Under the pieces are notes generated by a model. That model ran no database searches. It was not told the origin of the DNA and saw only the letters and a program-made list of their open reading frames with translations. A program made the translations under genes and the position numbers. From Ignavibacteriales bacterium (GTDB lineage Bacteria; Bacteroidota; Ignavibacteria; Ignavibacteriales; Ignavibacteriaceae), in NCBI GenBank assembly GCA_014727845.1, contig WJMR01000214.1:1-32672 (forward strand): a stretch of 32,672 nt of DNA. Reading direction: 5' to 3'. Of the stretch, positions 3,714-32,672 are shown piece after piece (positions within the stretch are counted from its first letter, which is position 1; each line of letters starts with the position of its first letter).

Positions 3714-3758
3714 AGCGTCTCCTCTGTTCGCTGTGGTGAACGGTGTTGTGTTGCGCAA

Positions 3759-11073: not shown

Positions 11074-11074
11074 G

Positions 11075-16653: not shown

Positions 16654-16690
16654 AACGTGGATTTCGTCTTGTCGGGTTACCGGATTATTG

Positions 16691-16704
16691 CGTAAGTTAA
16701 CCGG
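16691..16704 (-). promoter_or_regulatory. Shared promoter-region motif, copy 1 (GH38 operon)
   Basis: On the minus strand CCGGTTAACTTACG lies 37 bases before the ATG at 16653. It matches 12 of 14 positions with CGGGTTAACTAACG upstream of the second GH38 gene, in the same orientation to its gene. It may be an operator or an extended -10 region; a TTTTTCT box precedes it at 16722-16716. Confidence 0.4.
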
Positions 16705-16771
16705 CAACGTTATTCAGAAAAACGGTAAGGTTCAAGGGCGAACCGATATTCTCCATCAAGGACGCACGACG

Positions 16772-17692
16772 ATGACAAGCGAACTCCTGCGCCGACACGG
16801 GCGCAATCCCATCTTGACGAGCGACGACCTCCCGTTCCTCTGCAACGCGATTTACAATCCCGGCGCTACGAAATTCGGCGACGAGTATATACTTCTTGCG
16901 CGCGTCGAGGACGGACGACGCGACAACAAGCTGCATGTTTGCCGCTCCCGAGACGGCGTCGATTTCACGGTCGAGCCGACGCCGATCGCGATTACCAACC
17001 CGATCGACGACGGAATGCCCGAGAAGCATCTCTACGATCCGCGGATCACCCTTCTGGAGAATTCCTACTATATAACATACTGCTCGCAGGGCTTCGACGA
17101 GACCGTCCGCATCGGGTTGCTTAAGACGGACGACTTCGCCACGTTCGAGCGCGTCGCCTACATCGCCGAACCGTGGAACCGCAACTGCGCGATCTTCCCC
17201 GAAAAAATCGGCGGCGGATACGCGCGCTTCGACCGACCGATGAGCGGCGACGACGTGATCAACGTCGTCTCCTACTCGCCCGATCTCGTGCATTGGGGCG
17301 AGTCGAAGGCGATCGAGTTGGAACCCGTCACGTGGTTCCGGCAGAAGTGGGGCGTCGGTCCGACGCCGATCAAAACGGACGCGGGCTGGCTGACGATCTT
17401 CCACGGCGTTTGGCTCGCGGTTAACTATGTGTATCGCCTCGGCGTCGTGTTGTTGGATTTGGAGGACCCGTCGAAAGTCGTCGGGCAGTCTCCCGAGTTC
17501 ATCCTCACGCCGCGCGAGCCGTACGAGCGGACGGGAGAGACGATCAATTGCGTCTTCTCGAATGGCGCGATCGTTGAACCGAACGGCGAGGTGAAAGTGT
17601 ACTACGGCGCGGCGGATTCCTGTATCGGTCTCGCGACGACGACGATCGACGAACTCGTGGAGGCGTGTCTCAGAAACGGGAGAGCGAGATGA
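16772..17692 (+). CDS. Glycoside phosphorylase family GH130 (beta-mannoside phosphorylase)
   Basis: The product is 306 aa from the ATG at 16772 (AAGGA nine bases upstream); the open frame further upstream runs across the divergent promoter and is not used. The five-bladed propeller family is recognised by NPGATKFGDEYILLARVEDGRR (as two adjoining blocks at 29-50), the catalytic Asp in HLYDPRIT (D89), the phosphate-site motif NRNCAIFPEKIGGGYARF and DRP (~160-185), and GWLTIFHGV. GH130 enzymes cleave Man-beta-1,4-Man, Man-beta-1,4-Glc or Man-beta-1,4-GlcNAc with phosphate, giving alpha-mannose-1-phosphate. Which acceptor is used cannot be read from the sequence. No signal peptide, so cytoplasmic. 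It overlaps the next gene by ATGA (4 bases). Context with two alpha-mannosidases favours a mannoside or N-glycan-core substrate. Confidence 0.92.
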   Translation: MTSELLRRHGRNPILTSDDLPFLCNAIYNPGATKFGDEYILLARVEDGRRDNKLHVCRSRDGVDFTVEPTPIAITNPIDDGMPEKHLYDPRITLLENSYYITYCSQGFDETVRIGLLKTDDFATFERVAYIAEPWNRNCAIFPEKIGGGYARFDRPMSGDDVINVVSYSPDLVHWGESKAIELEPVTWFRQKWGVGPTPIKTDAGWLTIFHGVWLAVNYVYRLGVVLLDLEDPSKVVGQSPEFILTPREPYERTGETINCVFSNGAIVEPNGEVKVYYGAADSCIGLATTTIDELVEACLRNGRAR

Positions 17693-18888
17693 GCGAGGAG
17701 AAGGGCGGGCGCGTCGCGTCCATCGACGTCTTCCGCGGCTTGACGATTTTCGTGATGGTCTTCGTCAACGAGCTGGCGCGCCACGAGGGAATACCCGCGT
17801 GGATGAAGCACGCCCCGTCCGAGCAAGACTGGATGTCGTTCGTGGACGTCGTCTTTCCCGCGTTCCTCTTCATCGTCGGAATGTCCATCCCGCTCGCGCT
17901 TGGCAAGCGGATGGAGCGGGGCGCGAGCGCCGCCGACCTGTGGTCGCACATCCTACTCCGCACGGGCGCGCTCCTCATACTCGGCGTGTTTATGGTGAAC
18001 ATGCACGGCTTCCGCGAGGACGCCATGCCGCTGAGCGGCGATTGGTGGACCTTCCTCGTCTTCGTCGCCGTGATGTTCGCGTGGAACGTCTATCCGAAAA
18101 CGCTCGACTCGAAACTCGCGAACGGCTTAAAGATTTTCGGAGCGATCGTGTTGATCGTCTTGGCGATTCTCTACCGAGGCGACGAGGAGGGGAGCGTTCG
18201 TTGGATGCGCACGTATTGGTGGGGGATCCTCGGCTTAATCGGATGGGCGTATCTAACCGCGAGCGCGACGTACCTCGCGTTCCGTAACCGGCTCCCCGCG
18301 CTTCTCGGCGCGCAGGCGCTCCTCACGCTCCTCTTTATCGGCGATCAACAAGGCGCGCTGGATTTCTTCGGCGTCGTGCGCGACTATGTGTGGCTCGGCG
18401 GGCAGATCGGCACGCATTCCTCGATGGTCGTCGCGGGCGTCGTCGTCTCGACGCTCTTCCTTAAGGACGCGCCGACGAAAACGCCGAAGGAGCGGATCGT
18501 ATGGGCGCTCGCCTACGCCGCCTTTCTCTTCGTCGCGGGCTACTTGTTGGCGGACGCGTTCGGAATCTCGAAGACTCGCGCCACACCCGGATGGGCGCTC
18601 TACTCGCTTTCGATTTGCGCGGCGCTCTTTGCGTTCTTCTATTGGCTCGTCGATCTTCGGGATAAGGAGGGATGGTTCGCGTTCCTCCGACCCGCGGGCG
18701 TCAATCCGCTACTCGCGTACATTCTTCCATACACGCTCTACGCCCTTTTCGGAGCGTTGGGCGTTGCCGCATGGTTGGATCAATTTCATCAAGGCGTTCC
18801 CGCGATTCTTTGGTCGATCGTCTTCTCGTTCGCCATACTTGGCGCAACGGCCGCGCTTACAAAGTGGGGCGTGCGACTTAAGCTTTAG
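17689..18888 (+). CDS. DUF5009/NagX-like multi-pass membrane protein
   Basis: The product is 399 aa from the ATG at 17689, which overlaps the GH130 stop as ATGA and has GGGAGAG upstream. The N-terminus RVASIDVFRGLTIFVMVFVN is the hallmark of the COG4299/DUF5009 family, related to heparan-alpha-glucosaminide N-acetyltransferase and to NagX of N-acetylglucosamine clusters. About ten membrane helices can be seen, including FPAFLFIVGMSIPLAL, TGALLILGVFMVNMHGF and the C-terminal pair. A conserved His-containing loop (NMHGF, ~110) fits the acyltransferase family. It is likely an inner-membrane protein that transports or acylates an amino sugar. Its presence beside GH130 and GH38 suggests the substrate contains GlcNAc, an inference. 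Confidence 0.85.
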   Translation: MSEEKGGRVASIDVFRGLTIFVMVFVNELARHEGIPAWMKHAPSEQDWMSFVDVVFPAFLFIVGMSIPLALGKRMERGASAADLWSHILLRTGALLILGVFMVNMHGFREDAMPLSGDWWTFLVFVAVMFAWNVYPKTLDSKLANGLKIFGAIVLIVLAILYRGDEEGSVRWMRTYWWGILGLIGWAYLTASATYLAFRNRLPALLGAQALLTLLFIGDQQGALDFFGVVRDYVWLGGQIGTHSSMVVAGVVVSTLFLKDAPTKTPKERIVWALAYAAFLFVAGYLLADAFGISKTRATPGWALYSLSICAALFAFFYWLVDLRDKEGWFAFLRPAGVNPLLAYILPYTLYALFGALGVAAWLDQFHQGVPAILWSIVFSFAILGATAALTKWGVRLKL

Positions 18889-18907
18889 CCGCTTGGTTCT
18901 TAATTAA

Positions 18908-18921
18908 CGGGTTAACTAACG
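18908..18921 (+). promoter_or_regulatory. Shared promoter-region motif, copy 2 (second GH38 gene)
   Basis: CGGGTTAACTAACG lies 26 bases before the ATG at 18948 and matches the motif before the first GH38 gene at 12 of 14 positions. The 59-base gap between the DUF5009 gene and this GH38 gene is AT-rich (TTAATTAA just upstream), so the second GH38 gene may have its own promoter. Confidence 0.4.
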
Positions 18922-18947
18922 ACTATTTAACTATTACGATAGCTCCT

Positions 18948-21674
18948 ATGCCGAATAACGCATCCAAACCGTTTCGCGCGCACTACATTTCGGGAACCCA
19001 CTGGGATCGCGAGTGGTATCGCCCGTTCCAAGAATTCCGCCTTCTCCTCGTCGAGGTGATGGACGACCTCCTCGATCTTCTCGACCGCGACCCCGAGTTC
19101 GCGCACTTTCATCTCGACGGACAAACGTGCGTTCTTAAAGACTACCTTGAAATCCGACCCGAGGAAGAGCCGCGATTGAAGCGGCACGTCGCCGACGGAC
19201 GCATCCTCATCGGTCCGTGGCACACGATGCCCGATCTTTTCGCGACGGGGCAGGAGGCGCTCGTTCGCAATCTCCTCTTCGGGAAAATGATTTGCGAGGA
19301 GTGGGGCGTCGAACCGATGGCGGTCGGTTACGTCTGCGATATGTTTGGCCATACCTCGCAGGCGCCGCAACTCTTCCGCCGCTTCGGAATAACCCGCGCG
19401 GTGATGGGGCGGGGCGCGAACGAACACACGACCCCGATGTATTTCACGTGGCGCGCGCCGAACGGGGACGAGACGTTTACGTTCAAGTTGCAGGATCGAT
19501 ACGGCTACGCCGCCTTCGCGCAGGCGCGACACATCCTCGAGGCGCCCGACGCCGAGGAGGATTCGACCGCCGAGGAACGAGCGACCAAGACGATGGAGGA
19601 CTATGCGAGGCACGAAACGAGTCGGGCGAACGGTTCGACGATCGCGCTCTTCGACTCGATGGATCATATGCCCCCCGCATCGAATCCGAAGCGTTATCTC
19701 GATCTTCTGCGCGGCGCCTATCCGGAACTCGACACGACGCACTCCTCATTGCCCGCCTTCTTCGACGAAGCCGAGCGAACGGCGATCAATCTTCCGACGC
19801 GCGTCGGCGAACTACGAGAACCCGCGAAAGGGACGTATCCTTACTTGTGGCTTATCCCGAACTGCGGCTCCTCGCGCGTCCGACTGAAGCAAGCGAACGA
19901 TCGATGCGAGCGTCTCCTCGCGAGCGAGGCGGAACCCTTCGCGGCGTTCGCGCGCGCGCTCGGCGACAAGACGCCGCGACGACTCTTCCGAACCGCGTGG
20001 GAGTACACGCTTCTCAATCACGCGCACGACAGTGTGTGCGGATGCTCGATAGACCAAACGCATCGGGATATGAGCTATCGCTACGATCAGGCGGAGATCC
20101 TCGCGAAGCAGTTGCGCAATCGCGCCGTCGGTTTCCTCGCCGCGACTCGCAAAGACCCCTCGGAAGGGGAGCGAGAATTCGCGGTCGTCCTCTCGAATCC
20201 CTTGCCGCGAGCGCGTAAGGAGACGGTCGTCTTTCCCGTCGATCTTCCGCCCGATTACCCGACGCAATTCACCGAAGGGTTCCCGGGTTCGCAGAACGTC
20301 AAGTCCTTCACGCTTCACACGATCGAGGGGGAGGAGATTCCCTACCTGCGCTTGTCGATCGATCCACGTCATCAAGAGCGGACGCGCTACGCCTTAACCA
20401 CAACCGAGGGGGGCGACGGCGTCGTCTCGCGTTATATGGTCGCCGCCGAGATCGACCTGCCCGCGTTGGGGTTCGTCGCCGTGCGCGCGCGTCAGAGCGA
20501 CTCGCCCGTCCGATACGCCGGATCGTTGCGCACGGGACCCGCCTCCGCCGAGAACGACCGCGTCGCGCTCGCGATCAATCCAAACGGGACGTTGCGCCTG
20601 CTCGACAAGGCGACGGGGGAGACGTACGACGACTTATTGATTTACGAGGACGATAGCGAGATCGGCAGCGGATGGTTCCACTCCTTCACCGTGAACGACG
20701 AGACGGTCTCGACCGCCGCGGGCGACGCCCGGCTCTCCGTGATCGACGACGGTCCCGAGCTCGTACGCTTTGCGATTCGAAGGACCCTCTCGCTTCCGAA
20801 ACGCTACGATTGGCGCGGCGAACGGCGAACCGACGAGCGCGTCGAGACGAATATCACGGACTTCGTGACGTTGACGAAAACGGCGAGCTACGTCGAGATC
20901 GAGACGGTCGTCGAGAACGTCGCGGAGGATCACCGTTTGCGCGCGCTTTTCCCGACCGACGTCGAGGCGGATACCTACCTCGCCCACACGGCGTTCGACG
21001 TCGTCGAGCGACCGATCGCGAGGGACCGCGAGACGTTTAAGTGGCAAGAGTACGAGCTTGTTCAAAAACCGTTTCTTGGATTTATGGCGATTGGCGGGGG
21101 CGAACGGGGGTTGGCGTTCGTCTCGGGCGGCGGCTTCCGCGAGGGGGGCGTCCGCGAGGACGAGCGGCGCACGATGGAAACGACGCTGTTGCGCTCCTTC
21201 CGACGGACGGTGGGAACGCCCGGGGAGCGCGACGGACTCGAGCTTGGCGAGATTCGGTACCGATACGCGATTATGCCGTTCGCGGGCGAGCGGGCGAGGC
21301 AACGGGCGTTGGAGGCGCACGATATCCTCTCGACGGAAATCGTCGCCTCGCAAACGGGAACGATCCGTTCGGGATTTCCGCCGCTTGCGGGCGAGGAGCC
21401 GGCGCGGGCGAGTTTCCTACGGTTGGAGTCGGGCGCGCTCTCGCTCGCGGCGATAAAGACGAGCGAAGACGGCGAGGCGATCGTGGCGCGGATGTGGAAT
21501 CCGACCGAAGAGGCGCAAACCGAAAGGCTACGTTTTTACGCGGAGGTGAAAGAGGCGCGTTACGTCGATCTCGCGGAACGCCCGTCGGATAAGGGCGTGC
21601 CGAGAATCGACGGCGCCGTCGTCGAGATCGCGGCGGACGGTAAGGAGATTGTAACGGTTCGCGTCGAGTTGTGA
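18948..21674 (+). CDS. Alpha-mannosidase, glycoside hydrolase family 38 (MngB-like branch)
   Basis: The product is 908 aa from the ATG at 18948. Zinc ligands H18 and D20 are in SGTHWDREWY at the very N-terminus, the nucleophile D131 is in VCDMFGH, and the distal His H360 is in LLNHAHDSVCGCSID. This N-terminal start and the motif spellings resemble the E. coli MngB/2-O-mannosylglycerate-hydrolase branch rather than the first GH38 in this window, so the two are not recent duplicates. Cytoplasmic (no signal peptide). No ribosome site is evident before the ATG. It likely cleaves a different alpha-mannosidic linkage from its partner. Its stop TGA and the stop of the convergent WG-repeat gene form the palindrome TGACGCGTCA (21672-21681). 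Confidence 0.94.
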   Translation: MPNNASKPFRAHYISGTHWDREWYRPFQEFRLLLVEVMDDLLDLLDRDPEFAHFHLDGQTCVLKDYLEIRPEEEPRLKRHVADGRILIGPWHTMPDLFATGQEALVRNLLFGKMICEEWGVEPMAVGYVCDMFGHTSQAPQLFRRFGITRAVMGRGANEHTTPMYFTWRAPNGDETFTFKLQDRYGYAAFAQARHILEAPDAEEDSTAEERATKTMEDYARHETSRANGSTIALFDSMDHMPPASNPKRYLDLLRGAYPELDTTHSSLPAFFDEAERTAINLPTRVGELREPAKGTYPYLWLIPNCGSSRVRLKQANDRCERLLASEAEPFAAFARALGDKTPRRLFRTAWEYTLLNHAHDSVCGCSIDQTHRDMSYRYDQAEILAKQLRNRAVGFLAATRKDPSEGEREFAVVLSNPLPRARKETVVFPVDLPPDYPTQFTEGFPGSQNVKSFTLHTIEGEEIPYLRLSIDPRHQERTRYALTTTEGGDGVVSRYMVAAEIDLPALGFVAVRARQSDSPVRYAGSLRTGPASAENDRVALAINPNGTLRLLDKATGETYDDLLIYEDDSEIGSGWFHSFTVNDETVSTAAGDARLSVIDDGPELVRFAIRRTLSLPKRYDWRGERRTDERVETNITDFVTLTKTASYVEIETVVENVAEDHRLRALFPTDVEADTYLAHTAFDVVERPIARDRETFKWQEYELVQKPFLGFMAIGGGERGLAFVSGGGFREGGVREDERRTMETTLLRSFRRTVGTPGERDGLELGEIRYRYAIMPFAGERARQRALEAHDILSTEIVASQTGTIRSGFPPLAGEEPARASFLRLESGALSLAAIKTSEDGEAIVARMWNPTEEAQTERLRFYAEVKEARYVDLAERPSDKGVPRIDGAVVEIAADGKEIVTVRVEL

Positions 21675-21678
21675 CGCG

Positions 21679-22743
21679 TCACTCCTCGATGTAGAGCGTT
21701 CCGTCTTTGCCGAGATAACCCCACAAACCGTCGTAGTTGACGTACGCCAATCCTCGGTAAAATCCTTCGGCGTGTTTGAAGTCGTTGTCGAAAATCATTT
21801 CGCCCGTCGGTTTGAGAAAGCCGAACTCTTTGCCGTCCTTCACCAAGCCGCGCTCGTCTTGGAACGGGTAGGCGAACTCGTACTCCGGCTCGACGACGAA
21901 CTCGGCGTAGCCGTTAATGTATCCCCACTCGAAGGTTTCGACGGACATTGCGGGCGCGAGTCCGCCGTTAAACGAACCGACTTCGAGGAATTGAAAATCG
22001 ATCACCATCTCGCCCGCGCGGTTGACGAATCCCCACATCCCGTCCTTCATCACCGCGGCGACGCCCTGGCTGAACGGCGACGCATCCTCGAATTGGAACT
22101 CGATCGCGAGGAACCCCTCGTCGGATAGGTAGCCCCAGCGCTCGTTCTGTTTCACGGGCGCCAATCCGGAACTGAAGTGACCGAAATCCTCGTACTCGAA
22201 GGGAATAACCGGATTGCCGTCTCGGTCGATAAATCCGCAGAGACCGTTGTGGCGCACGCCCGCCAAGCCCTCGTGGAAGTCGCCCGCGTCTTCATACATC
22301 GCGGGAACGACCATCTCGCCTTTGTCGTCCACGAATCCGACGAGAGATTTTTTCTCCACTCTGCCTCGTCCCTCGATGAATCGTTGCGCGAAGTCGAACT
22401 CGAACGGCGTGAGTAGCTCGCCTTTATTCGAGAGATAGGCGTTCTGGTGGTAGCGACGCACGATGGCGACGCCTTCATAGAAATTCTCGACCTCGTCGAA
22501 GCTCGGCTCGACGACCATGCTGTCGGCTTCGTTGATGTAGCCCCAAAGGTCGCCGACGCGAACCGCCGCCAATCCTTCGTTGAAGGGTTTCGCTTCGTCG
22601 TATTTATGCGCGATGACGAGTTCTTTGTCGGGCGCGGTGAATCCCCACTTTCCCTCGTAGTTGAACGGTATCAGGTGCGGCGTTTGCGCGGAGGTCGTCG
22701 CGACGAGCGTCGCGATTACGAGAAGTGCGCGTAGCGTTTTCAT
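21679..22743 (-). CDS. Secreted WG-repeat protein
   Basis: The product is 354 aa from the ATG at 22743 (GGAG five bases before). A signal peptide (residues 1-19, ending TTSAQ) is followed by about nine WG repeats of ~35 residues: KWGFTAPDKELVIAHKYDEA, LWGYINEADSMVVEPSFDEV, LCGFIDRDGNPVIPFEYEDF, RWGYLSDEGFLAIEFQFEDA, MWGFVNRAGEMVIDFQFLEV and so on, ending LWGYLGKDGTLYIEE. WG repeats (PF14903) form beta-propeller or beta-rich scaffolds found in many secreted bacterial proteins; no enzymatic role is known. One unit (residues ~90-115, around AYLSNKGELLTPFEF) lacks the WG pair. Single gene, transcribed convergently with the GH38 gene. Confidence 0.92.
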   Translation of the reverse strand: MKTLRALLVIATLVATTSAQTPHLIPFNYEGKWGFTAPDKELVIAHKYDEAKPFNEGLAAVRVGDLWGYINEADSMVVEPSFDEVENFYEGVAIVRRYHQNAYLSNKGELLTPFEFDFAQRFIEGRGRVEKKSLVGFVDDKGEMVVPAMYEDAGDFHEGLAGVRHNGLCGFIDRDGNPVIPFEYEDFGHFSSGLAPVKQNERWGYLSDEGFLAIEFQFEDASPFSQGVAAVMKDGMWGFVNRAGEMVIDFQFLEVGSFNGGLAPAMSVETFEWGYINGYAEFVVEPEYEFAYPFQDERGLVKDGKEFGFLKPTGEMIFDNDFKHAEGFYRGLAYVNYDGLWGYLGKDGTLYIEE

Positions 22744-22889: not shown

Positions 22890-23357
22890 ATGCGACGAAA
22901 ACTACGACTCGGGCTCATCGCCCACGATAATAAGAAGCGCGACTTGCTTGAGTGGGTCTATTTCAACCGCGACGCGCTGACGCGCCATCGGCTAATCGCG
23001 ACGGGTACGACCGGAACGGTCGTCGAAAAAATGCTCGGCGTGGAGGTGGAAAAGGTGCGATCCGGACCGCTCGGCGGCGATCAAGAGATCGGGGCGATGT
23101 TGGTCAACGACAAGATCGACGCGCTCTTTTTTTTCTGGGACGGCCTCGACGCCCACCCGCACGACCCCGACGTGAAGGCGTTGTTGCGGCTTAGCGTGGT
23201 GTGGAACGTCCCGACCGCATGCAATCGCTCGACCGCCGATATGATCATCTCGAGTCCGCTCTTCGAGGGGAAGTACGAACGCACGCCGCCCGACCTCGCG
23301 GAGTACTCGCGAAATCGTCCGCTGGATATTTCTTTCGACACGGGCGAGGACGGCTAA
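22890..23357 (+). CDS. mgsA: Methylglyoxal synthase
   Basis: The product is 155 aa, the normal length. The enzyme converts dihydroxyacetone phosphate to methylglyoxal and phosphate in the cytoplasm, a bypass that relieves build-up of sugar phosphates. Family motifs are all present: LIAHDNKK (9-16), TGTTG (39-43), SGPLGGDQEIGA with the catalytic Asp (D64), and PHDPDVKALLRL with the active-site His (H91), then NRSTADMIISSP. One small difference from E. coli is WDGL in place of WDPL before the His motif. GGGAG lies 7 bases before the ATG. The stop codon interlocks with the stop of the convergent kinase gene (4 bases shared). It could limit phosphate trapping when mannoside use is fast, but the link to the cluster is only proximity. 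Confidence 0.97.
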   Translation: MRRKLRLGLIAHDNKKRDLLEWVYFNRDALTRHRLIATGTTGTVVEKMLGVEVEKVRSGPLGGDQEIGAMLVNDKIDALFFFWDGLDAHPHDPDVKALLRLSVVWNVPTACNRSTADMIISSPLFEGKYERTPPDLAEYSRNRPLDISFDTGEDG

Positions 23358-26300
23358 CCCGCTCCGTTCGCCGCGTCGCGGATGCGTTCGACGAGCGCCT
23401 CGAATTCGTCGAGCCGCGCGCCCATCTTCTCGACGTCGAAACTCTCGACATGAAAGCGCAAGTCGTCGGCGTATTCCTTCAGCGCCGCGAGCTCGGTTTC
23501 CTTGGCGACGCCGTCGAGCCGATCGCAGAAATCGGCGACGTCCCGCAAAAAGTGGTTCTTCGCCGCCTTCTCGTGCAGCGCGAACAACTCGTCGTCGAAT
23601 AGTTCGAGCGCGTCGTTCGCCGCCTTTGGGGGAATCTCCCTTCGCTCCGACGTCTCCGCCGCTTCTCGCGCATCCTCCGCCGCCTCGGTTTCCACGTACG
23701 ACAGATATTTCTTAAGCGTCCCGATGAGTCCTTCGAGTTGCACGGGTTTGACGAGGTAGTCGTCGAATCCCGATCCGAGTATCTTGTCTTCGTCGCCCTT
23801 CATTGCCGACGCGGTGACGGCGACGATCGGCGTTTGGTCAAGCTCCGGAATAGCGCGAATGCGGCGCGTCGCTTCGTAACCGTCCATCACGGGCATACGG
23901 ATGTCCATAAGAATCGCGTCGGGTTTGGACGCCTTCGCCGTCTCGATCGCTTCCGCGCCGTTCTCGGCGGTCACGGTTGTAACGGCGGTTGTCGCGAAGA
24001 ACTCGACGATAAGGTCGCGATTGGTTTTTATGTCGTCCACCACGAGCACGGTCGCCTCGTCGAACACGATCCGATCGAGCCGTTCCTCCGCCTTGACGAG
24101 CGCCGAGCGTTGAATCGACGCGGCCGCGACGTCGCGGAGGCGCATCAAGAACGCGCTACCGACGCCCGGCTCGCTCTCGACGGAAATATCGCCGCCCATC
24201 ATTTCCACCAGGCGCTTGGTGATCGCCAAGCCCAAGCCCGTGCCGCCGTACTTCCTCGCGCTTTGTCCTTCTTGCTGTTTGAAGGATTCGAATATTTCCT
24301 TTTGCGATTCCTTCGGAATGCCGACGCCCGTGTCCTCGACGGTGAAGAGGAGATCGACCTTGCTCCGATCCTCGGCTTTATACACGTTCTCGACGCGGAG
24401 CTTCACGCCGCCCTCGTCGGTGAACTTGACCGCGTTGCCGATAAGATTGAACAGCGCTTGGCGGAGGCGAACCTCGTCCAGCAGCAAGCCCTCGGGTAGT
24501 TCGGGATCGATCCGCACGTCGAACTCGAGATTCTTCTCGGCGATGCGCGCGGAAAAAATCTGTCGGACTTCCTCGATGAGCGCGCGCGGATCTACGGGTT
24601 CGTAGTTAAGCTCGAATTTCCCCGCCTCGATTTTCGAGAGGTCGAGGATGTCGTTGATGAGCGTGAGGAGATTCTTTCCCGCCGTTTTAATCGCGTCGAG
24701 TCGAGACTTCTGCTTCCGATCTTCGAGCGAGGCGTTGATCAAGTCGGTGAAGCCGAGGATGGCGTTCATCGGCGTGCGGATCTCGTGGCTCATGTTCGCG
24801 AGGAACTCCGACTTCAGTCGCGACGCCTCGAGCGCCTTTTCCTTCGCCGCGATGAGCGCGCGCTCGTTTTCCTTGAGCTGCGTGATGTCCCGCGCCGACG
24901 CGAGCGCCGTTTTCACGCGCTCCTCCTTCGAGAATTCGGGCGAGATGATAAGGTCGATCCACACCCCCTCGGTCGTTTGGAACTCGACGCGACGCTCCAC
25001 GCCGCGATCGAACACCTTCTCCAGCGCGCCGCTCCACACCTTCACAATGGAAGCGGCGAACCCGATCTCGGTCATCGTTTTGCCGACGAACTCGTCCGCG
25101 GGCACGTCCATAATCGCCTCGGAGGCGCGGTTGGCGTAGAGGATTTTGAAGTCGCGATCGAATCGCATAATCACGTCGTTCGAGTATTCCGCGAGCGCCT
25201 TGAATTTCTCCTCGCTGTCCCGCAACGACTCCTCGAACTGCTTCCGTTCCTCGATCTCTTTTTGCAGAAGCTCGACGGCTTGCGAGAGTTCGGACGTTCG
25301 TTCGGCGATGCCCCGCTCGAGCTCCTCGTTGACGCGCTTAAGCTTCTCCTCGAACTTCTTTCGATCCTCGATGTTGACGATGACGTTGAGGATCGCGGGT
25401 CTGCCGCCGTACGCGATAACCGCGCCGCGCACCTCGACGGGCAACAAGCTTCCGTCCTTCTTCACGATCTCGATCTCGAAACTCTTCACGTCCTCGCCCG
25501 CCAAGCGCCGCTCGATTTGCTCGACGACGCGCGGACGATCCTCCGGCTTGAGCATATCGAAGATGTCCCGCTCCGCCGCCTCGTTGGGAGTAAAGCCCGT
25601 GATCTCCTCGACGACCTGATTGGCGAAGACGACTTTCCCGCCTTGATGCACGATCACCATATCGGGTAGCTCGGCGACGAGACCCTTGTAGCGCTCCTCG
25701 CTTTCTTTGAGGACGCGCGCGGTGCGGCGCTCCTCGGTTACGTCCGCGCCGACGGAGACGACGTGCGTTATCCGACGGTGTTCGTCGTAGTAGGGGTAGA
25801 GGCGAAAGTGGACCGTCCGCTCCTCGTCGAAGCCGGGCAAGACGATGCCGAGTTCCAACGAAAGCTCGCCCCCCTCGAAGCACGCGTCGATGGAGGATTT
25901 CATCTCCTCGCGGAAGCGTTTCTCGGTGAACGCCCGCGAGAGTGTCGAGCCAAGGAGCTCCTCGCGTTCGCGGTCGAGCGCGCGACAGAACGACTCGTTG
26001 ACCGCCTCGAAGCGATACTCGCGATTGACGAGCGCCATAAACTCGCGAGAAGAGTTGACGATGAAGTCGTACTTCCTGCCGCTCTCCTCGAGCGCCTTCT
26101 GCTCGGTGATGTTTTCCTTAACGGTGACGTAGTGCGTTACGACGCCGCGCTCGTCGGTGATGGGCGAGATCGACGCGATCTCCCAATACTCGTTTCCTTC
26201 CTTGTCGCGGTTCAAGAACTCGCCTTTCCACTCGTCGCCCGCCGCCAGCGTTTTACCGAGACCGTTGAACGCCTCGGGGTCCTCCTTGGCGTTCGCGAGG

Positions 26301-27232
26301 AAGTCCGACTTCGTCCCGACAATCTCCTCCTCGCGAAACCCCGTCGCTTGGAGGTATTTCGGATTGACGTACTCGATAGTGAGATCGACGTTCGTCAGCA
26401 TAATGGATACGGGGGATTGGACGATGGCTTGCGTTAGCTTGCGGAGCTCGGCTTCGGCGCGTTCGCGGTCGGCGATCTCGGTTTTGAGCTGCGAGTTGAA
26501 ATCCTCGAGCGAGTTGTAGGCGAGCTCCAACGATTCGACCATCACGTTGAACGAGCGCGCCATCAACCCCACTTCGTCGCTTCTTTCGACGTCCACGCGT
26601 TTGGTGAGGTCGCCGTCGGCGATCTGCCCGAACGTTTTGGACATTTCGCGCATCGGGGCGGTGGTCGCGCGTCCGATGCCGATAGCCGCGAGGACGCCGA
26701 TGACCGAGAAGCCGAGGGCGATGAATATCATCGTCGTCTGGAAGTTCTCGATGTCGCGATAGACGCCCGCGAGCGAGAGTCCGAGATAGAGCGCGCCGAC
26801 GTCGCGATCGTCCACCGCGATGGCTTTGCGGATTTGGTAGATCTCCTCCTCCTCCAACTCGTGGCGCTCGTTCGCCGTTCGGAAACCGACCCGATCGGCG
26901 AGCGCTTGGTTGAACGCGTCCACGATCTCGCCGTCCGAATCCACGACGACGATGAAGGCGACGTCTTCGTTCTGGAGCGCCGTTTCAATCGCCTCTTGGA
27001 TTTGGTCGTGCAGTCCGAAGTCCAACGCGGCGCGCGCGGTGTAGGCGGTCATCGTCGCGATGCTCGCCGCCTTGTCGCGCGTCATATCGAGCGACCTGCT
27101 ATGCATCACGTCGGGCACGATGAAGTAGATGTTGAGCGAGACGAAGATCATCAGCGCGGCGATCGGGATGGCCATTTTCGCGGCGAGGGAGCCGACCCGG
27201 TGATGATAGAATGATTTGAGAGCGTCGAGCAT
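23354..27232 (-). CDS. Hybrid sensor histidine kinase (periplasmic sensor-HAMP-4xPAS-HisKA-HATPase-REC)
   Basis: The product is 1292 aa. TM1 is ~18-40; the periplasmic sensor ~41-165 resembles CHASE8-type domains of YfiN (RAALDFGLHDQIQEAIETAL, then VAFIVVVDSDGEIVDAF); TM2 is ~168-192; HAMP ~190-245. Four PAS domains follow (~262-380, 385-500, 512-630, 672-795) with a coiled coil at ~632-672. HisKA holds the phosphorylated H816 in FLANMSHEIRTPMNAIL; the HATPase has DTGVGIPKE and GGTGLGLAI. A receiver (~1058-1175) has D1110 in LMDIRMPVMDG and the Lys of DDYLVKPV. The last ~80 residues are a helical bundle that resembles the degenerate Hpt-like tail of related kinases but has no obvious phosphorylatable His. 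Its gene starts 6 bases after the YfiR-like gene, so both are in one operon. It autophosphorylates and passes phosphate to its receiver; the final target is unknown. Confidence 0.95.
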   Translation of the reverse strand: MLDALKSFYHHRVGSLAAKMAIPIAALMIFVSLNIYFIVPDVMHSRSLDMTRDKAASIATMTAYTARAALDFGLHDQIQEAIETALQNEDVAFIVVVDSDGEIVDAFNQALADRVGFRTANERHELEEEEIYQIRKAIAVDDRDVGALYLGLSLAGVYRDIENFQTTMIFIALGFSVIGVLAAIGIGRATTAPMREMSKTFGQIADGDLTKRVDVERSDEVGLMARSFNVMVESLELAYNSLEDFNSQLKTEIADRERAEAELRKLTQAIVQSPVSIMLTNVDLTIEYVNPKYLQATGFREEEIVGTKSDFLANAKEDPEAFNGLGKTLAAGDEWKGEFLNRDKEGNEYWEIASISPITDERGVVTHYVTVKENITEQKALEESGRKYDFIVNSSREFMALVNREYRFEAVNESFCRALDREREELLGSTLSRAFTEKRFREEMKSSIDACFEGGELSLELGIVLPGFDEERTVHFRLYPYYDEHRRITHVVSVGADVTEERRTARVLKESEERYKGLVAELPDMVIVHQGGKVVFANQVVEEITGFTPNEAAERDIFDMLKPEDRPRVVEQIERRLAGEDVKSFEIEIVKKDGSLLPVEVRGAVIAYGGRPAILNVIVNIEDRKKFEEKLKRVNEELERGIAERTSELSQAVELLQKEIEERKQFEESLRDSEEKFKALAEYSNDVIMRFDRDFKILYANRASEAIMDVPADEFVGKTMTEIGFAASIVKVWSGALEKVFDRGVERRVEFQTTEGVWIDLIISPEFSKEERVKTALASARDITQLKENERALIAAKEKALEASRLKSEFLANMSHEIRTPMNAILGFTDLINASLEDRKQKSRLDAIKTAGKNLLTLINDILDLSKIEAGKFELNYEPVDPRALIEEVRQIFSARIAEKNLEFDVRIDPELPEGLLLDEVRLRQALFNLIGNAVKFTDEGGVKLRVENVYKAEDRSKVDLLFTVEDTGVGIPKESQKEIFESFKQQEGQSARKYGGTGLGLAITKRLVEMMGGDISVESEPGVGSAFLMRLRDVAAASIQRSALVKAEERLDRIVFDEATVLVVDDIKTNRDLIVEFFATTAVTTVTAENGAEAIETAKASKPDAILMDIRMPVMDGYEATRRIRAIPELDQTPIVAVTASAMKGDEDKILGSGFDDYLVKPVQLEGLIGTLKKYLSYVETEAAEDAREAAETSERREIPPKAANDALELFDDELFALHEKAAKNHFLRDVADFCDRLDGVAKETELAALKEYADDLRFHVESFDVEKMGARLDEFEALVERIRDAANGAG

Positions 27233-27238
27233 ACGCGC

Positions 27239-27781
27239 CTACCGATAGACGATGGCGAGGTTCATAAGCTCGGAGGATATCTTGTGTCGCTCGGCTTCGA
27301 GGCGGGGGAGGTTGATGAGAATCTTCGCCTTTCGGTTTTGGAGTCCCACCCCGATCGCCGCGTCGCCGCGCTCCACGGCGGAGGGATCGCCGGAGAGCGA
27401 GAGCGCGCCGTTGCGCTCCAACGTTTCTCGGAAACCCCGCGACTCGACGCCCGAAGGGAAGTACACAATCGAGCCGGCGCCGATCGCCTTAAGCGCCTCC
27501 TCCGGGTTGCGGCTCCCCGCGTCGATCTTCTCGTTCTCGAACGCCTCGACGATCGCTTCGGCGTCCTCGACCTCGGGCGTGACGACGATCAGCACCGACA
27601 CGCGCGCGGGGTCGTCTATCGTCTTGACATAGGAGAAAATCTTAGAGAACATAATCGCCTGAACGCCCGGCGTTAGCGGCAACATCTGCGCCGAGGCCGC
27701 GCCGCCGAACGCCAACGCGCACACGACCGTCAGCGCGGCGAAGCGAAGTGGCGGACGATATGACGACGACGAACGGTTCAA
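27239..27781 (-). CDS. YfiR-like periplasmic protein (DUF4154)
   Basis: The product is 180 aa. I place the start at TTG 27781, whose second and third bases are the first two of the receptor's TGA stop, giving a TTGA overlap; the frame is open upstream but lies inside the receptor gene, and no ATG precedes the signal peptide. Residues 1-~33 are a signal peptide (FAALTVVCALAFGGAASAQ). The mature part carries the DUF4154/YfiR signature: AIMFSKIFSYVKTI near the start, VSVLIVVTPEVEDAEAIVEAF, then at the end GVGLQNRKAKILINLPRLEA and SSELMNLAIVYR. YfiR in Pseudomonas binds the periplasmic domain of the inner-membrane protein YfiN and represses it. Here it lies between a TonB receptor and a kinase, so it probably passes the receptor's state to the kinase. 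Confidence 0.85.
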   Translation of the reverse strand: MNRSSSSYRPPLRFAALTVVCALAFGGAASAQMLPLTPGVQAIMFSKIFSYVKTIDDPARVSVLIVVTPEVEDAEAIVEAFENEKIDAGSRNPEEALKAIGAGSIVYFPSGVESRGFRETLERNGALSLSGDPSAVERGDAAIGVGLQNRKAKILINLPRLEAERHKISSELMNLAIVYR

Positions 27782-29808
27782 AACGGCAACTCGTAGTAAA
27801 CGCGCAACGTCGCCGACATGGTGGGCGCGGGGAGGGGAGACATATAGCCGCGGAACGGCTGCAAGTATTCGTAGTATTGGTTCAACAGGTTGCGGATCCC
27901 GATATCGACGTCCAACCCGTCGGCGACGAGATCCTTGGTGTTGAAGTTGAGGTTGAGCAGGAACGTCGAGCCGAACTCTTTGATTTGATCGTCCACTTCG
28001 ATGCCCGCGGGCGTTTCGTGCAACTCGCCGCCGATGTAGCCGTAACGCTCGCCGAAGTAGGTGAAGGACGGCGTGATGGCGACGTCGTCCTCGAGTTTGA
28101 TCGTCGCGTAGGCGTTGAAGGTGAGGTGCGGAAATCCGAGCGCGCGTTTGCCCTCGTCGGGCACGGCGATCAGCGCGTTCGAGTTGTCCGAAAGAACCGA
28201 CCACCCCGCGTTCATTCCCAAGCGGAAATTCGAGGTAACCATCCGATGCTCGATCTCGAAGCCGCGCGACCCGATTCGCTCGAAATTATCGTAGTAGTTG
28301 TAGCCCGTCGTTTCGTTCAAGCGGAAGCCGATCACGTCGCGGAAGTCGATCATATATCCGTTGAGCAGAAACTGGTTGGACTCGGAAATTTGGTAGCCGA
28401 CCTCGAACTCGTAGATCTCGCCCTTCTCCGACGTGAGCGCGGAGTTGTAGTATTTCGAACCGGGTAGCGTCACCGATTGACTGTACATCAGTTTGGCGTG
28501 GAACGGGTCGAGGATTTTCGTGAGCGCGACGCGCGGCACAAAGGATTGATCAAAAAGCGAGTGGGTGAAATATCTTCCGCCGACGACGAGATTGCCGATT
28601 TCCGATTGATAGATGATTTGCGCGAAGGCGACGTACTCCTCGGCTTCGATCCGGTCGGTCGAGTCGGTTCCGCCGAAGGAGATCTCCATATAGCCGCGCT
28701 TCCGCTCGTTCACTTTGGTTACGGCGCTCGCCGCCTCGGCGCCGGCGAGAAGGTGAAAGCCCTGAAAGATCTCGCAGGCGTACTCGACGCCGAGCCGTCG
28801 GTGAATCACGTCCTTATCGTTCCGGTACGCCGTGTCGCGGTAGGCGACGCCGTCCATCAAGAGGGGACCTTCCCCCTCGATTTGCCATGGTCGTTGCCAC
28901 TTATATTCGAGGTAGGGGCGGAGGGTCGAGGATTCCGAAAGCTCGTAGCGATATTGCAACAACGCCGTGAGCATATCGTTGGCGAAGGTTTCCTCGAGGT
29001 CGTAGTCGTAGCGATCGTAGAGGAGACGAAGATCGAAATCGTCGTAGCGAACGTCGAGGTTGGCGTGGAGGGGGCGGAACTCGATGTGCTTGGCGCCGAA
29101 GGATTGCATCCCCTTGAAGTAGGGGACGTACTCGCGGTCGCTGAGTTTACCTTTACCCGTGAAGCCCGTAAGCGAGACGTCGAAGTCGCCGATCTGGTCG
29201 CCGTAGCCGAACGCGACGTCGCGATGCGAGAACGCGTCGGACATCCGCGAGAGATTGCCCGAAACGTAGGCGCCGTCGATGGATGCGAAATCTCGCGTAA
29301 CGACGTTGATTACGGCGAGCCCCGCGTAGCCGCCGTGGATGACCGAACCGGGACCGCGGATCACCTCGATCCGCTCGATGTTCTCGGGGTTGACGCGGTT
29401 GCCGAAGATGAATCCGCCGTACGCCTCGTCGTTGACGGTCATCCCGTCGATCATAATCTTCATCTTGCCCTCGTAGGCGAAAACGCCGCGCGAGCCGAGG
29501 CCGATGGGACCGTATTCGGATTGGAGGAAGTGGAAGCCGGGAACGAGGAGCGTGAGCGCGTCGATCAAGTCGCGCGCGCCCGTGTTGATTAAATCCTCGC
29601 GCGTGATGACCGTGACGATGCCCGGCGCCTCGCGCGTCGAGAGGGGAACGTGCGAGGCGACGCTAATCTTTTCGTCGAGAATATCTTCGAGCGACATTTG
29701 GCGGAGTTGCTCGAGCAACTCGTCGTCCACCTCGTCGCCTTCGAATTGCGCGAAGAGGGGCGCCGCGAACGCCGTGAGTAGTATCGCTATACGCGCGAGA
29801 TGGTTCAT
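27778..29808 (-). CDS. TonB-dependent outer-membrane receptor, signalling operon
   Basis: The product is 676 aa from the ATG at 29808. A signal peptide (~1-20, ending PLFAQ) is followed by an acidic helix (LEQLRQMSLEDILDEKISVAS, ~33-53), a plug domain (~55-165: EAPGIVTVITREDLINTGA, PGFHFLQSEYG, ERIEVIRGPGSVIHGGYAG) and a 22-strand-type barrel ending in Phe (VYYELPF). Receptors with the 'SLEDIL...ISVAS' N-terminus often sit next to DUF4154 and sensor genes, which suggests ligand sensing as well as, or instead of, import. No additional N-terminal signalling (STN) domain is evident. The mRNA leader holds a strong hairpin containing GGAGG (29824-29839). The gene overlaps the YfiR-like gene by 4 bases. 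Confidence 0.94.
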   Translation of the reverse strand: MNHLARIAILLTAFAAPLFAQFEGDEVDDELLEQLRQMSLEDILDEKISVASHVPLSTREAPGIVTVITREDLINTGARDLIDALTLLVPGFHFLQSEYGPIGLGSRGVFAYEGKMKIMIDGMTVNDEAYGGFIFGNRVNPENIERIEVIRGPGSVIHGGYAGLAVINVVTRDFASIDGAYVSGNLSRMSDAFSHRDVAFGYGDQIGDFDVSLTGFTGKGKLSDREYVPYFKGMQSFGAKHIEFRPLHANLDVRYDDFDLRLLYDRYDYDLEETFANDMLTALLQYRYELSESSTLRPYLEYKWQRPWQIEGEGPLLMDGVAYRDTAYRNDKDVIHRRLGVEYACEIFQGFHLLAGAEAASAVTKVNERKRGYMEISFGGTDSTDRIEAEEYVAFAQIIYQSEIGNLVVGGRYFTHSLFDQSFVPRVALTKILDPFHAKLMYSQSVTLPGSKYYNSALTSEKGEIYEFEVGYQISESNQFLLNGYMIDFRDVIGFRLNETTGYNYYDNFERIGSRGFEIEHRMVTSNFRLGMNAGWSVLSDNSNALIAVPDEGKRALGFPHLTFNAYATIKLEDDVAITPSFTYFGERYGYIGGELHETPAGIEVDDQIKEFGSTFLLNLNFNTKDLVADGLDVDIGIRNLLNQYYEYLQPFRGYMSPLPAPTMSATLRVYYELPF

Positions 29809-29856: not shown

Positions 29857-30477
29857 TTAAAATACTCCGAATTTCAGTCCGAACTGCGTTTCCATACCGC
29901 TTAACTCCGAGGCGCGTAAGCCGGAGAGTCTGCCGCCTTCCACCGCCCGATAACCGACGCCCGCGAAGGCGCGGACAAACTTAAAGAGATTAACCTCGAC
30001 GGAGACGACGTTCGAGAACATGAAGAACGCCGTGCCTTCGGCGTCCTCCAAGGAATATTGGTTCCTCAAGGAGTAGGTCAACCCTCCGGCCGCCAGGAGC
30101 GAGCGGATCCGCAGATGAACGAGCCGCTCGGGAAAGACGGTGAACTCCAGAAAGACGCCGCCGTAACCCGACTTAACGAAATACTCGCCGTCGGGGTTGG
30201 TTTGCGCCACCTCGGGCGCCTTTATATCGGTCGCCAACGCGCCGCCCATACCGCCGAGGGCGACATTGCGGTTGATTTGCCACGCGCCGCCGCCGCCGGG
30301 GAAGAGACACGGCTCGCCCATAAACGACGCGACGGTGAAGGTGGGTCCGCCGTAGCCGCCGCCGCCGCCGCCGGGAAACAGCAGGTCCGGCTCGTCGGAT
30401 TGCCCGCGCGCCGCGGTTCCGAGCGCGAGCGCCACAAGCATAAGCGGGGTTGCCGCGAGCGTCGCGGGGCTACGCAT
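29857..30477 (-). CDS. Secreted glycine-rich protein, probably outer-membrane beta-barrel
   Basis: The product is 206 aa; the ATG at 30477 lies inside the end of the cyclase gene (8-base overlap) and has GGAGG five bases upstream. A signal peptide (1-~25) is followed by two Gly-rich motifs, LLFPGGGGGGYGGP (32-45) and CLFPGGGGAWQINR (57-70), then amphipathic strands (VFLEFTVFPERLVHLRI, FAGVGYRAVEGGR) and a terminal FGLKFGVF. The final Phe and strand pattern suggest a small barrel. I know similar GGGGGGYGGP-containing proteins in FCB genomes, but no function. Lying between the cyclase and the receptor genes, it is part of the same operon and may be an outer-membrane partner of the receptor. Confidence 0.8.
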   Translation of the reverse strand: MRSPATLAATPLMLVALALGTAARGQSDEPDLLFPGGGGGGYGGPTFTVASFMGEPCLFPGGGGAWQINRNVALGGMGGALATDIKAPEVAQTNPDGEYFVKSGYGGVFLEFTVFPERLVHLRIRSLLAAGGLTYSLRNQYSLEDAEGTAFFMFSNVVSVEVNLFKFVRAFAGVGYRAVEGGRLSGLRASELSGMETQFGLKFGVF

Positions 30478-31924
30478 CGGCGCCTCCGTTTTGTTTTCCC
30501 GAAACGAGATCGGCGACGCGCCGCTTGACGTCGTCGGGCATGTAAGTGAAGTGAACGACGCACGTTCCGTCGTTCTCGAGCGTTTCGACGACCTTGGCGT
30601 AGATCGCCTCCGAATCGTGGTCGTGGAGCGTGATCTTCAAATTCGTGAACGCGGTCGTCGCGCGCTTCAACTCGACGAGCGCCCGCCGTTTCGAGACTTC
30701 CATCATCCTCCCCTCGAACGCCACGTGGTCCGCGCTCTTCTCGTCCAATTCGACGTAGGAGAGCGCGAGCGGTTCTTTGAGCGCGACGAGCGGCTCCTCG
30801 AACGTCGGGACGCGTAGGTTATACGGCTCCTTCATCCCCGCCAAGTCGTAGAGTTCGATGGGGCGGCGCACGCCTTTGGGATTGACCTTGATCGACTTCT
30901 TGATGATCGCCTTATCCTTCACGGCTTGGTAGGCGCCTTCGGAAACGAGAATCTGTCCGCCGACGGTGTAGGACTCGATGCGCGAGGTGATGTTGACGTT
31001 CCTCCCGACGACGCCGTATTTGGCGCGCTTCATCGAGCCGATGTTCCCGACGATCACCTCGCCGGTGTTGACGGCGACGCCCATCCACGCCTCGGGCAAG
31101 CCCTGCTCGCGGTTCGCCTCGTTAAAGCGGGTCATCGCCAGTTGCATATCCGCGGCGCAGGCGGCGGCGCGTTCGGCGTGGTCGTCCTTCCAAATCGGCG
31201 CGCCGAAGATGACCAGAATCGCGTCGCCGATGAACTCGTCGATCGTCCCGTCGTATTTGAGGATCACGTCGGTCATTACGCCGAGATAGTTGTTGAGGTA
31301 GGCGACCACTTGCTCGGGTCGCATATGCTCGGTGACGGATGAGAAGCCGCGGAGGTCGGACATCAGGATCGAGACGACGCGCTTCTCGCCGCCCATCCGC
31401 ACGCCCTCGGGATGTTCGAGCAAGCTCTCGACGATGTCGTCGGATAGATAGCGCCCGAACGTGCGGCGAATGAAGTTGTTGCGGATCTCGAGCTCGTCCA
31501 CGCGTTTGCGGAGGTTCTGCTCGAGCTTGCGGATGGTGAGATGCGTCTCGACGCGCGCGGTGATCTCTTCGGCTTCGTAGGGCTTGGTTACGTAGTCCAC
31601 CGCGCCGGCTTTGAACCCGGTGATTTTATCCGACGTGTCGGCGAGCGCCGTCATAAAAATAACGGGAACCTCGGCGGTCTTCTCGTCGCCTTTGAGTCGG
31701 CGGCACGTCTCGAAGCCGTCGATGCCGGGCATCATTACGTCGAGGAGAATAAGATCCAGTTCGTTCTCCGAGGCGATCTTCAGCGCGTCCTCGCCGTTCG
31801 AGGCGAACGTGAGGTTGTATTCGCGTTCCATAAGGATGTTGCCCAGCACTTGGATGTTCTTCGGCTGGTCGTCCACGATCAGTATCTTACAATCGCGGTT
31901 CTCGAAGCGTCGTTCGTCGCTCAT
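30470..31924 (-). CDS. Response regulator-class III nucleotide cyclase with C-terminal PilZ-like region
   Basis: The product is 484 aa. REC domain ~11-130: acidic pair D18-D19, phospho-accepting D62 (LLDVMMPGIDG), K114 (VTKP). A coiled coil (~131-165) leads to a class III cyclase (~180-365): metal-binding D190 (MSDLRGFS) and D234 (FIGDAILVIFGAP), transition-state N311 and R315 (NITSR). The base-recognition position before FIGD is E230, where adenylate cyclases usually have Lys and guanylate cyclases Glu. The second position (KYGVVG) is Gly rather than Asp or Thr. The enzyme may therefore make cGMP, or both products. Residues ~384-475 form a small beta-rich domain with a PilZ-like profile but without a clear RxxxR. 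The kinase downstream in the operon could phosphorylate it. Start: GAGGA just before the ATG at 31924. Confidence 0.93.
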   Translation of the reverse strand: MSDERRFENRDCKILIVDDQPKNIQVLGNILMEREYNLTFASNGEDALKIASENELDLILLDVMMPGIDGFETCRRLKGDEKTAEVPVIFMTALADTSDKITGFKAGAVDYVTKPYEAEEITARVETHLTIRKLEQNLRKRVDELEIRNNFIRRTFGRYLSDDIVESLLEHPEGVRMGGEKRVVSILMSDLRGFSSVTEHMRPEQVVAYLNNYLGVMTDVILKYDGTIDEFIGDAILVIFGAPIWKDDHAERAAACAADMQLAMTRFNEANREQGLPEAWMGVAVNTGEVIVGNIGSMKRAKYGVVGRNVNITSRIESYTVGGQILVSEGAYQAVKDKAIIKKSIKVNPKGVRRPIELYDLAGMKEPYNLRVPTFEEPLVALKEPLALSYVELDEKSADHVAFEGRMMEVSKRRALVELKRATTAFTNLKITLHDHDSEAIYAKVVETLENDGTCVVHFTYMPDDVKRRVADLVSGKQNGGADA

Positions 31925-31999: not shown

Positions 32000-32672
32000 C
32001 TATTTGTCGTCCTCGTCGGATTTCTCGTCGATTCCCCGCGTAAACTTCGTCCGATCCTCGTCGGTCGCGTCCGCCGAATCCGAGTCGGCTTGCGGCGCGT
32101 CGGCGAGAGCGTCGTCGGCGAGAGCGTCGTCGTCCTCGGAAGCGTATTCATCCCGGTCGTCGTACTCGTCCTCGCGCCTCTTGCGACTACGAGCGCGGAG
32201 GAAGAGGATGATCGCGACGACCGCGACCAACACGCCGCCGGCTACGAGATAGTACCACACGGGAACGGGGGCGGGCGGTTCGGGTTCGCCGACGGCGGCT
32301 TTCCAATCGGCGACGCGATTCTCCATCCGATTCATCTGCTCCTCGTCGATCAAGCGGAACTCGAGCAAGAGCGGCGCCCACTCCTCGACGATCAGCGGCG
32401 TCCAGACCGTGTCGGCGAAATAGACGTACTCGTCGTATTGCCCCGGCGCGGCCGCCGAGTCGATTTCGGGATCGACGTAGGCGACGATGGCGGCGGTGAA
32501 CGATTCGCCGTCGGCAAAGTGGAGCAGCTCGAGGTCCGTCGTATCCAGCGCCTTCGTTACGCCCGTCCAGATTCGCGCATCGACAAGCTCCGCCCATTTC
32601 TTGATGCCGTCGTTGATTTCCCGCAGCTCCTCCTCGCTCTTGCCGGACGTCACGTAGATCTCCGTCATCAAC
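32000..32672 (-). CDS. Single-pass membrane protein of unknown function (5' end missing)
   Basis: The frame is open to the right edge. An ATG at 32668 exists, but the sequence around it reads like the middle of a protein, so I treat the gene as cut at its 5' end. The visible ~223 residues are mainly helical and extracytoplasmic (EEELREINDGIKKWAELVD, VEEWAPLLLEFRLIDEEQ), followed by a proline hinge (GEPEPPAPVP), one membrane helix (~138-160, WYYLVAGGVLVAVVAIILFL), a basic stop-transfer stretch (RARSRKRRE), and a very acidic cytoplasmic tail with a DDALA repeat. No family is recognised. It precedes the cyclase gene by 75 bases on the same strand, but that gap has its own promoter-like signal, so cotranscription is uncertain. 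Confidence 0.7.
   Translation of the reverse strand, partial: LMTEIYVTSGKSEEELREINDGIKKWAELVDARIWTGVTKALDTTDLELLHFADGESFTAAIVAYVDPEIDSAAAPGQYDEYVYFADTVWTPLIVEEWAPLLLEFRLIDEEQMNRMENRVADWKAAVGEPEPPAPVPVWYYLVAGGVLVAVVAIILFLRARSRKRREDEYDDRDEYASEDDDALADDALADAPQADSDSADATDEDRTKFTRGIDEKSDEDDK
32099..32128. repeat. Perfect 15-bp tandem repeat in the acidic tail
   Basis: GTCGGCGAGAGCGTC occurs twice in tandem (32099-32113 and 32114-32128). It encodes two copies of DALAD in the acidic tail of the membrane protein. Being a multiple of three, gain or loss of a copy keeps the frame. Confidence 0.9.

Follow-up and report, generated by a model that had tools for sequence, protein, structure and literature searches.

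A TonB-dependent receptor, a YfiR-like protein and a hybrid histidine kinase in a putative envelope-spanning signaling operon of an Ignavibacteriales bacterium

The window analyzed here, a 32,672-nucleotide stretch of an Ignavibacteriales draft genome (3.4 Mb, 98.6% complete), encodes what is well supported as a Yfi-type signaling chain, with a TonB-dependent receptor (TBDR) in the place of YfiB and a histidine kinase in the place of the GGDEF output. The support comes from recurrent gene triplets, from YfiR::kinase fusions encoded behind TBDRs, and from a conserved docking motif, and it sustains the same pair of substitutions proposed in an earlier, sequence-only reading of this DNA.

Five genes follow one another along the minus strand: a receiver (REC) plus class III nucleotidyl cyclase (30470..31924; 484 aa; Pfam PF00072 and PF00211); a 206-aa secreted protein with a signal peptide, a terminal Phe, and no Pfam or NCBIfam match (29857..30477); the TBDR (27778..29808; 676 aa); a YfiR-like periplasmic protein (27239..27781; 180 aa, TTG start); and a hybrid histidine kinase (23354..27232; 1292 aa). 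The cyclase and 206-aa genes overlap by 8 bases, 48 bases separate the latter from the TBDR gene, the TBDR stop and the YfiR-like start share a 4-base overlap (TTGA), and 6 bases lie between the YfiR-like gene and the kinase gene. These are very probably one operon with its upstream end at 31924. The last three genes had been read as tightly joined, with open reading frames, overlap, and gap exactly as found here, and as probably made together; co-expression remains very probable, but that reading took in only the last three of five genes. Elsewhere in the window are a mannan- or mannoside-use cluster (9823-21674) with two GH38 alpha-mannosidases, a GH130 mannooligosaccharide phosphorylase, an 813-aa fusion of a substrate-binding protein (SBP) with an ABC permease, and one more permease; a nine-repeat WG protein (21679-22743); a small MGS-like protein of the methylglyoxal synthase fold (22890-23357), the end of which overlaps the opposite-strand kinase stop by 4 bases; and a 223-aa protein (32000-32671) whose transmembrane region resembles GGIII-CTERM (NCBIfam NF041738, 22.9 bits).

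The 180-aa protein is assigned to DUF4154, as had been proposed for 27239-27781, at 27.2 bits against a Pfam cut-off of 24.9; a profile search without DUF4154 at this gene, the result named in the earlier reading as a refutation, was thus not what was obtained. Given this narrow pass, the assignment was checked independently with a structure model. The AlphaFold2 model (four-sequence alignment; pLDDT 93.9, pTM 0.90) has YfiR as its best PDB match in Foldseek (4zhu_B, E 7.6e-6, TM 0.67) and also matches the YfiR structures 4yna, 4yn7, and 5eb1; a Rhodothermus single-domain "substrate-binding protein" (5Z6V/8WGL) is among the top three matches. Fold comparison was used because a profile of the window-type YfiR had no match among PDB sequences; aligned to the canonical YfiR profile with hhalign, the same profile scores 98.3%. 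The model points to a YfiR fold. The protein has a signal peptide at about residues 1-31 and a mature part free of cysteine (none after residue 35). P. aeruginosa YfiR, in contrast, carries two cysteine pairs (PMC4655355), and disulfide control as described there cannot apply to the window protein. The Phe of the YfiR binding patch (V-x-F) is likewise replaced, by Ile, in 15/15 aligned window-type proteins.

The missing cysteines bear on an alternative in which the operon is a conventional stress or redox sensor of the YfiBNR kind and the TBDR a bystander. It has some precedent in P. aeruginosa, where YfiR is sensitive to redox conditions and reacts to the state of the envelope (PMC4655355, PMC3375315). 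However, besides the cysteine-free mature protein, most loci include a linked TBDR, and the PAL-type lipoprotein YfiB of the YfiBNR system has no counterpart here: Pfam detected no PAL domain in seven proteins scanned around the locus. We consider this alternative very improbable.

Pfam recognizes HAMP (7.8e-16), four PAS domains, HisKA, HATPase_c, and Response_reg in the kinase, together with a CHASE8 domain that scores 25.1 bits in hmmscan (cut-off 27) yet 30.2 bits in a six-frame search of the genome. This agrees with the architecture previously read from the letters—a CHASE8-like sensor plus HAMP, four PAS domains, a kinase, and a receiver. By hydropathy and Pfam, a transmembrane helix (residues 21-39) precedes CHASE8 (52-150) and a second helix (168-186) precedes HAMP; the periplasmic part between the two is modelled as a PAS-like sensor. 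The phospho-accepting His of the H-box SHEIRTPMN (24764..24790, minus strand) is intact, the kinase receiver has its phospho-accepting Asp in ILMDIRMP (23891..23914, minus strand), and Pfam recognized no Hpt domain in the C-terminal tail.

YfiR docking on YfiN has been mapped to the motif AAVVF (Malone et al., 2012; PMC3375315). Its counterpart in the window kinase is AALDF (residues 68-72; 27017..27031, minus strand), which aligns with residues 66-70 of E. coli DgcN and is the predicted YfiR-docking patch, with the Phe conserved. This Phe is kept in 47/48 CHASE8 domains linked to YfiR versus 15/22 unlinked ones (Fisher p 9e-4), so that it is also frequent in domains lacking a YfiR neighbor; the unlinked set began as 23 controls, one of which was dropped as its YfiR had been overlooked by the gene caller. 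The change from AAVVF to AALDF, together with the Phe-to-Ile change on the YfiR side, suggests that the YfiR–kinase interface has been altered or has drifted, while remaining hydrophobic.

For the TBDR, the plug domain alone is recognized (PF07715, 1.6e-17) and PF00593 finds no barrel, but the length of the protein and its nearest solved match, the colicin I receptor Cir (4.5e-10), fit the TonB-dependent receptor named in the earlier reading. Pfam found no STN signaling domain on it, only Plug. A short N-terminal element, MSLEDILD (29674-29697, minus strand), directly precedes a TonB-box-like stretch, KISVASH (29650-29670, minus strand). Motifs of the MSLEDILD type are present in most YfiR-linked TBDRs; an LSLEEL pattern, chosen post hoc, occurs in 47/61 of them versus 9/22 unlinked TBDRs (p 0.003), and most of the unlinked receptors that carry it sit in YfiR loci. 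LSLEEL-like N-termini also occur on TBDRs without YfiR, and the element is not, for that reason, claimed as a YfiR-binding site. A further TBDR in the window (930-3758) belongs to the common type in which a carboxypeptidase-regulatory-like domain lies at the N-terminus; most other TBDR N-termini read in this genome look similar, whereas the two YfiR-linked TBDRs differ. The 206-aa protein encoded between the cyclase and the YfiR-linked TBDR is Gly-rich and, judging from its sequence, a probable small outer-membrane beta-barrel. A homolog occupies the same place in one related locus (L051; phmmer 2.4e-29), and the gene is absent from another (L067).

The association of these genes extends well beyond the window. 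Searches for DUF4154 covered 396 genomes from the phylum and 164 from the order, and the neighborhoods were scored with purpose-built profiles. The phylum yielded 87 DUF4154-type genes, a few of them spurious (e.g., L058); the counts that follow depend on a basic gene caller and on genomes sampled unevenly across the phylogeny. TBDR-YfiR-CHASE8/HAMP-kinase triplets, the arrangement that the earlier reading would have the genomes searched for, account for 33/87 genes, and their components co-occur far above chance: DUF4154 and CHASE8 are found together in 30/396 genomes where 3.9 would be expected (40 and 39 genomes positive, respectively; hypergeometric 1.4e-28, with the relatedness of the genomes ignored). 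Nine of the 87 are TBDR-(YfiR::kinase) fusions, and in 4/87 the third gene is a CHASE8/HAMP chemoreceptor (MCP), one of these triplets being truncated where its contig stops. One such locus lies in the window's own genome (L039; G000:C308:1-8998), with a TBDR (749 aa), a YfiR (171 aa), and a CHASE8/HAMP chemoreceptor (592 aa) whose docking motif is atypical, having an insertion and no Phe; L059 and L070 likewise join a TBDR-YfiR module to an MCP output.

A wide genome scan with a 5-sequence YfiR alignment returned only three loci, in Melioribacteraceae and Ignavibacteriaceae; one MAG of each family is the nearest named carrier of this operon. A tblastn search of plasmids with the window YfiR gave zero matches. 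The wider gene set is seen in one phylum plus the alpha-, beta-, and gammaproteobacteria. Among proteobacterial plasmid loci with annotation, 5/5 inspected have a TBDR-YfiR-effector order, and a sixth match lies without gene annotation: a Sphingobium indicum plasmid encodes an ATP-binding protein after TBDR and YfiR; a Sphingobium TomTYG65 plasmid has two hypothetical proteins after its TBDR, in the corresponding positions, and the first of them is the YfiR match; and plasmids of Pseudoalteromonas, Caballeronia, and Paraburkholderia encode an EAL protein in third place. Operon genes need not interact, and chance adjacency or mere co-expression of unrelated genes could in principle produce a locus like that in the window; however, recurrence in many families and in Proteobacteria, the fusions, and the docking motif leave this explanation scarcely credible.

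In 11 fusion proteins (loci L032-L036, L068, L069, L075, and L079-L081), YfiR and a kinase or kinase-like part that lacks CHASE8 form one chain, and 10/11 are encoded directly behind a TBDR, often with separate REC and second kinase genes next. In all 11, YfiR is followed by a linker of 133-147 residues, proline-free and with a 3.5-residue hydrophobic period, and then by one transmembrane helix. As a coiled coil, this linker would span ~20-22 nm, close to the width of the periplasm. On the simplest reading, the fused YfiR would be anchored at the outer membrane, in contact with the TBDR; a bystander TBDR is hard to reconcile with an arm of such constant length.

A different role for the receptor should nonetheless be weighed. 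YfiR might be a single-domain periplasmic binding protein, with the TBDR doing no more than importing a compound, making no contact with YfiR, and the YfiR–ligand complex being read by CHASE8 in the manner of LuxP-LuxQ. The YfiR fold resembles one lobe of amino-acid-binding SBPs, and the YfiR-like model also matches the Rhodothermus 5Z6V/8WGL protein, a single-domain SBP whose gene often lies near a chemoreceptor gene (PMC10805632). However, neither any YfiR nor the Rhodothermus protein has a known ligand, and the constant ~20-nm fusion linker, needless for sensing a soluble ligand, suits reaching a TBDR. We regard such a binding-protein role as unlikely, though deserving of attention. Conversely, the Rhodothermus marinus protein, which shares the fold and a gene position near a chemoreceptor, was published as an SBP of unknown function with neither YfiR nor TBDRs mentioned, and may instead be a YfiR-type signaling protein.

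The likely output of the operon is the receiver-cyclase, the best candidate for this role and one that the sequence-only reading overlooked. That reading's chain is well supported in its Yfi-type core but incomplete, missing both this protein and the second, chemoreceptor-linked TBDR-YfiR locus of the genome. The receiver Asp (LLDVMMPG, 31724-31747, minus strand) is intact, as are all catalytic residues of the cyclase, including the Asp pair for metal, with a metal Asp in SDLRGF, and the Asn/Arg; the motif NVNITSR is present. A Glu in DEFIGD (31223-31240, minus strand) occupies the purine-specifying position and a Gly in KYGVVG (31004-31021, minus strand) the second specificity position, the E-G pair described in PMC4215837. 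Among natural proteins of solved structure, the best match, Synechocystis Cya2 (2W01, 4.1e-64), is a guanylate cyclase and shares the pair; the top solved match overall, 6FHT, a chimera of a phytochrome with the same cyclase domain, is named an adenylate cyclase and has Lys where the window cyclase has the specificity Glu. On the basis of these two residues, the protein is predicted to make cGMP from GTP. Unlike Cya2, it is fused to a receiver and encoded in a TBDR-YfiR-kinase operon. The genome encodes 7 cNMP-binding domains, possible readers of cGMP or cAMP. In another bacterial family of the same class, other class III cyclases with the adenylate-type motif YDLWGDTVN lie near TBDR-YfiR loci (L037, L052, L053, and L059), and two of these cyclases have CHASE8/HAMP.

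Four further full-length orthologs of the receiver-cyclase (62, 52, 51, and 46% identity) were recovered from 160 genomes of the order, so that five genomes, the window's included, carry the gene. All four adjoin a TBDR and/or a CHASE8 kinase. The order is cyclase-201 aa-TBDR-YfiR-kinase in G066 and cyclase-TBDR-YfiR-kinase in G441, while in G396 a contig ends after cyclase-TBDR; the cyclase-containing operon thus has only three complete copies among the genomes examined. In G460 (L109:1-2970), the cyclase gene stands directly before that for a CHASE8-HAMP-PAS kinase with neither TBDR nor YfiR between, and the docking motif of this kinase is degraded to APLNL, its Phe lost. That the cyclase stays with a CHASE8 kinase even here argues that it is the kinase's partner. 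It is conceivable, but rather improbable, that the TBDR, YfiR, and kinase act as proposed while the receiver-cyclase answers to a different kinase or is in fact an adenylate cyclase. In favor of this are the receiver that the hybrid kinase itself carries, the confinement of the ortholog to so few genomes, and a specificity judged from two residues; against this stand the adjacency of every full-length ortholog to the system, the match to Cya2, and the Lys of 6FHT at the specificity site.

Taken as a whole, the full envelope-spanning chain from TBDR through YfiR and kinase to cyclase, built on the YfiR–YfiN[PAS/HAMP] core, is somewhat more probable than its alternatives combined. The TBDR would stand in for YfiB at the outer membrane, and ligand binding or transport would alter how its periplasmic face (the MSLEDILD element or the plug) holds the YfiR-like protein. 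YfiR would dock on the AALDF patch of the kinase CHASE8 domain, probably locking one state as in YfiBNR, and its release or rebinding would shift the state of HAMP and kinase; the kinase would then pass phosphate to the receiver of the cyclase encoded in the same operon, which would make cGMP. The scheme builds on observed genes, domains, phosphotransfer and cyclase residues, docking motif, and recurrence of the gene set, and on a modelled YfiR fold; within it we infer the contacts, the direction of control, phosphotransfer to the cyclase, and the GTP substrate. Against the full chain weigh the altered YfiR–kinase interface, the frequency of the docking Phe in CHASE8 domains that lack a YfiR neighbor, and the small number of complete cyclase-containing operons; moreover, the kinase has a receiver of its own and no Hpt, and the route of the phosphate is not obvious.

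Compared with YfiBNR of P. aeruginosa and E. coli, the operon shares a YfiR-fold gene beside a CHASE8/PAS-HAMP protein with the docking Phe, but a TBDR is found in place of the PAL-type lipoprotein, and a HisKA/HATPase/REC hybrid kinase plus a REC-cyclase in place of a GGDEF output. With the divergent YfiR–YfiN[PAS/HAMP] modules, which mostly lack YfiB, it shares the core and a kinase output. Malone et al. (2012; PMC3375315) proposed that this core is modular and can drive HK, Hpt, GGDEF-EAL, or MCP outputs, and found almost all divergent Yfi operons to be without YfiB; the term "tonb" has 0 occurrences in that paper, and its list of outputs includes no cyclase response regulator. As in FecA/FecR/FecI, a TonB receptor would report to the inner membrane, but the window receptor has no STN domain, and the neighboring genes examined include no FecR or ECF sigma factor. 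That the YfiR–YfiN core can have kinase and chemoreceptor outputs has thus been described since 2012. Looking in the literature for papers that combine DUF4154 or YfiR with TonB receptors, with most subscription papers outside the reach of the search, returned nothing relevant; within the searchable literature, the TBDR linkage and the cGMP output appear undescribed.

Many Yfi-type systems are without YfiB, their usual outer-membrane input; a TonB receptor in that place would offer them a testable one, and the fused YfiR-kinases with their constant-length arm are natural constructs for tests of receptor–YfiR contact. It is possible, if still tentative, that TBDR plus YfiR represents a general and so far undescribed mode of cell-surface signaling, in which YfiR, either free or carried at the outer membrane by a ~20-nm coiled-coil arm of the kinase, relays the receptor's state to interchangeable inner-membrane outputs, and that in this lineage the relay ends in a dedicated receiver-guanylate-cyclase, by which ligand occupancy at the outer membrane would set cytoplasmic cGMP. 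If true, this would constitute a route of TonB-receptor signaling that needs neither sigma nor anti-sigma factor, and whose outputs can be swapped among kinases, chemoreceptors, c-di-GMP enzymes, and, here, probably cGMP.
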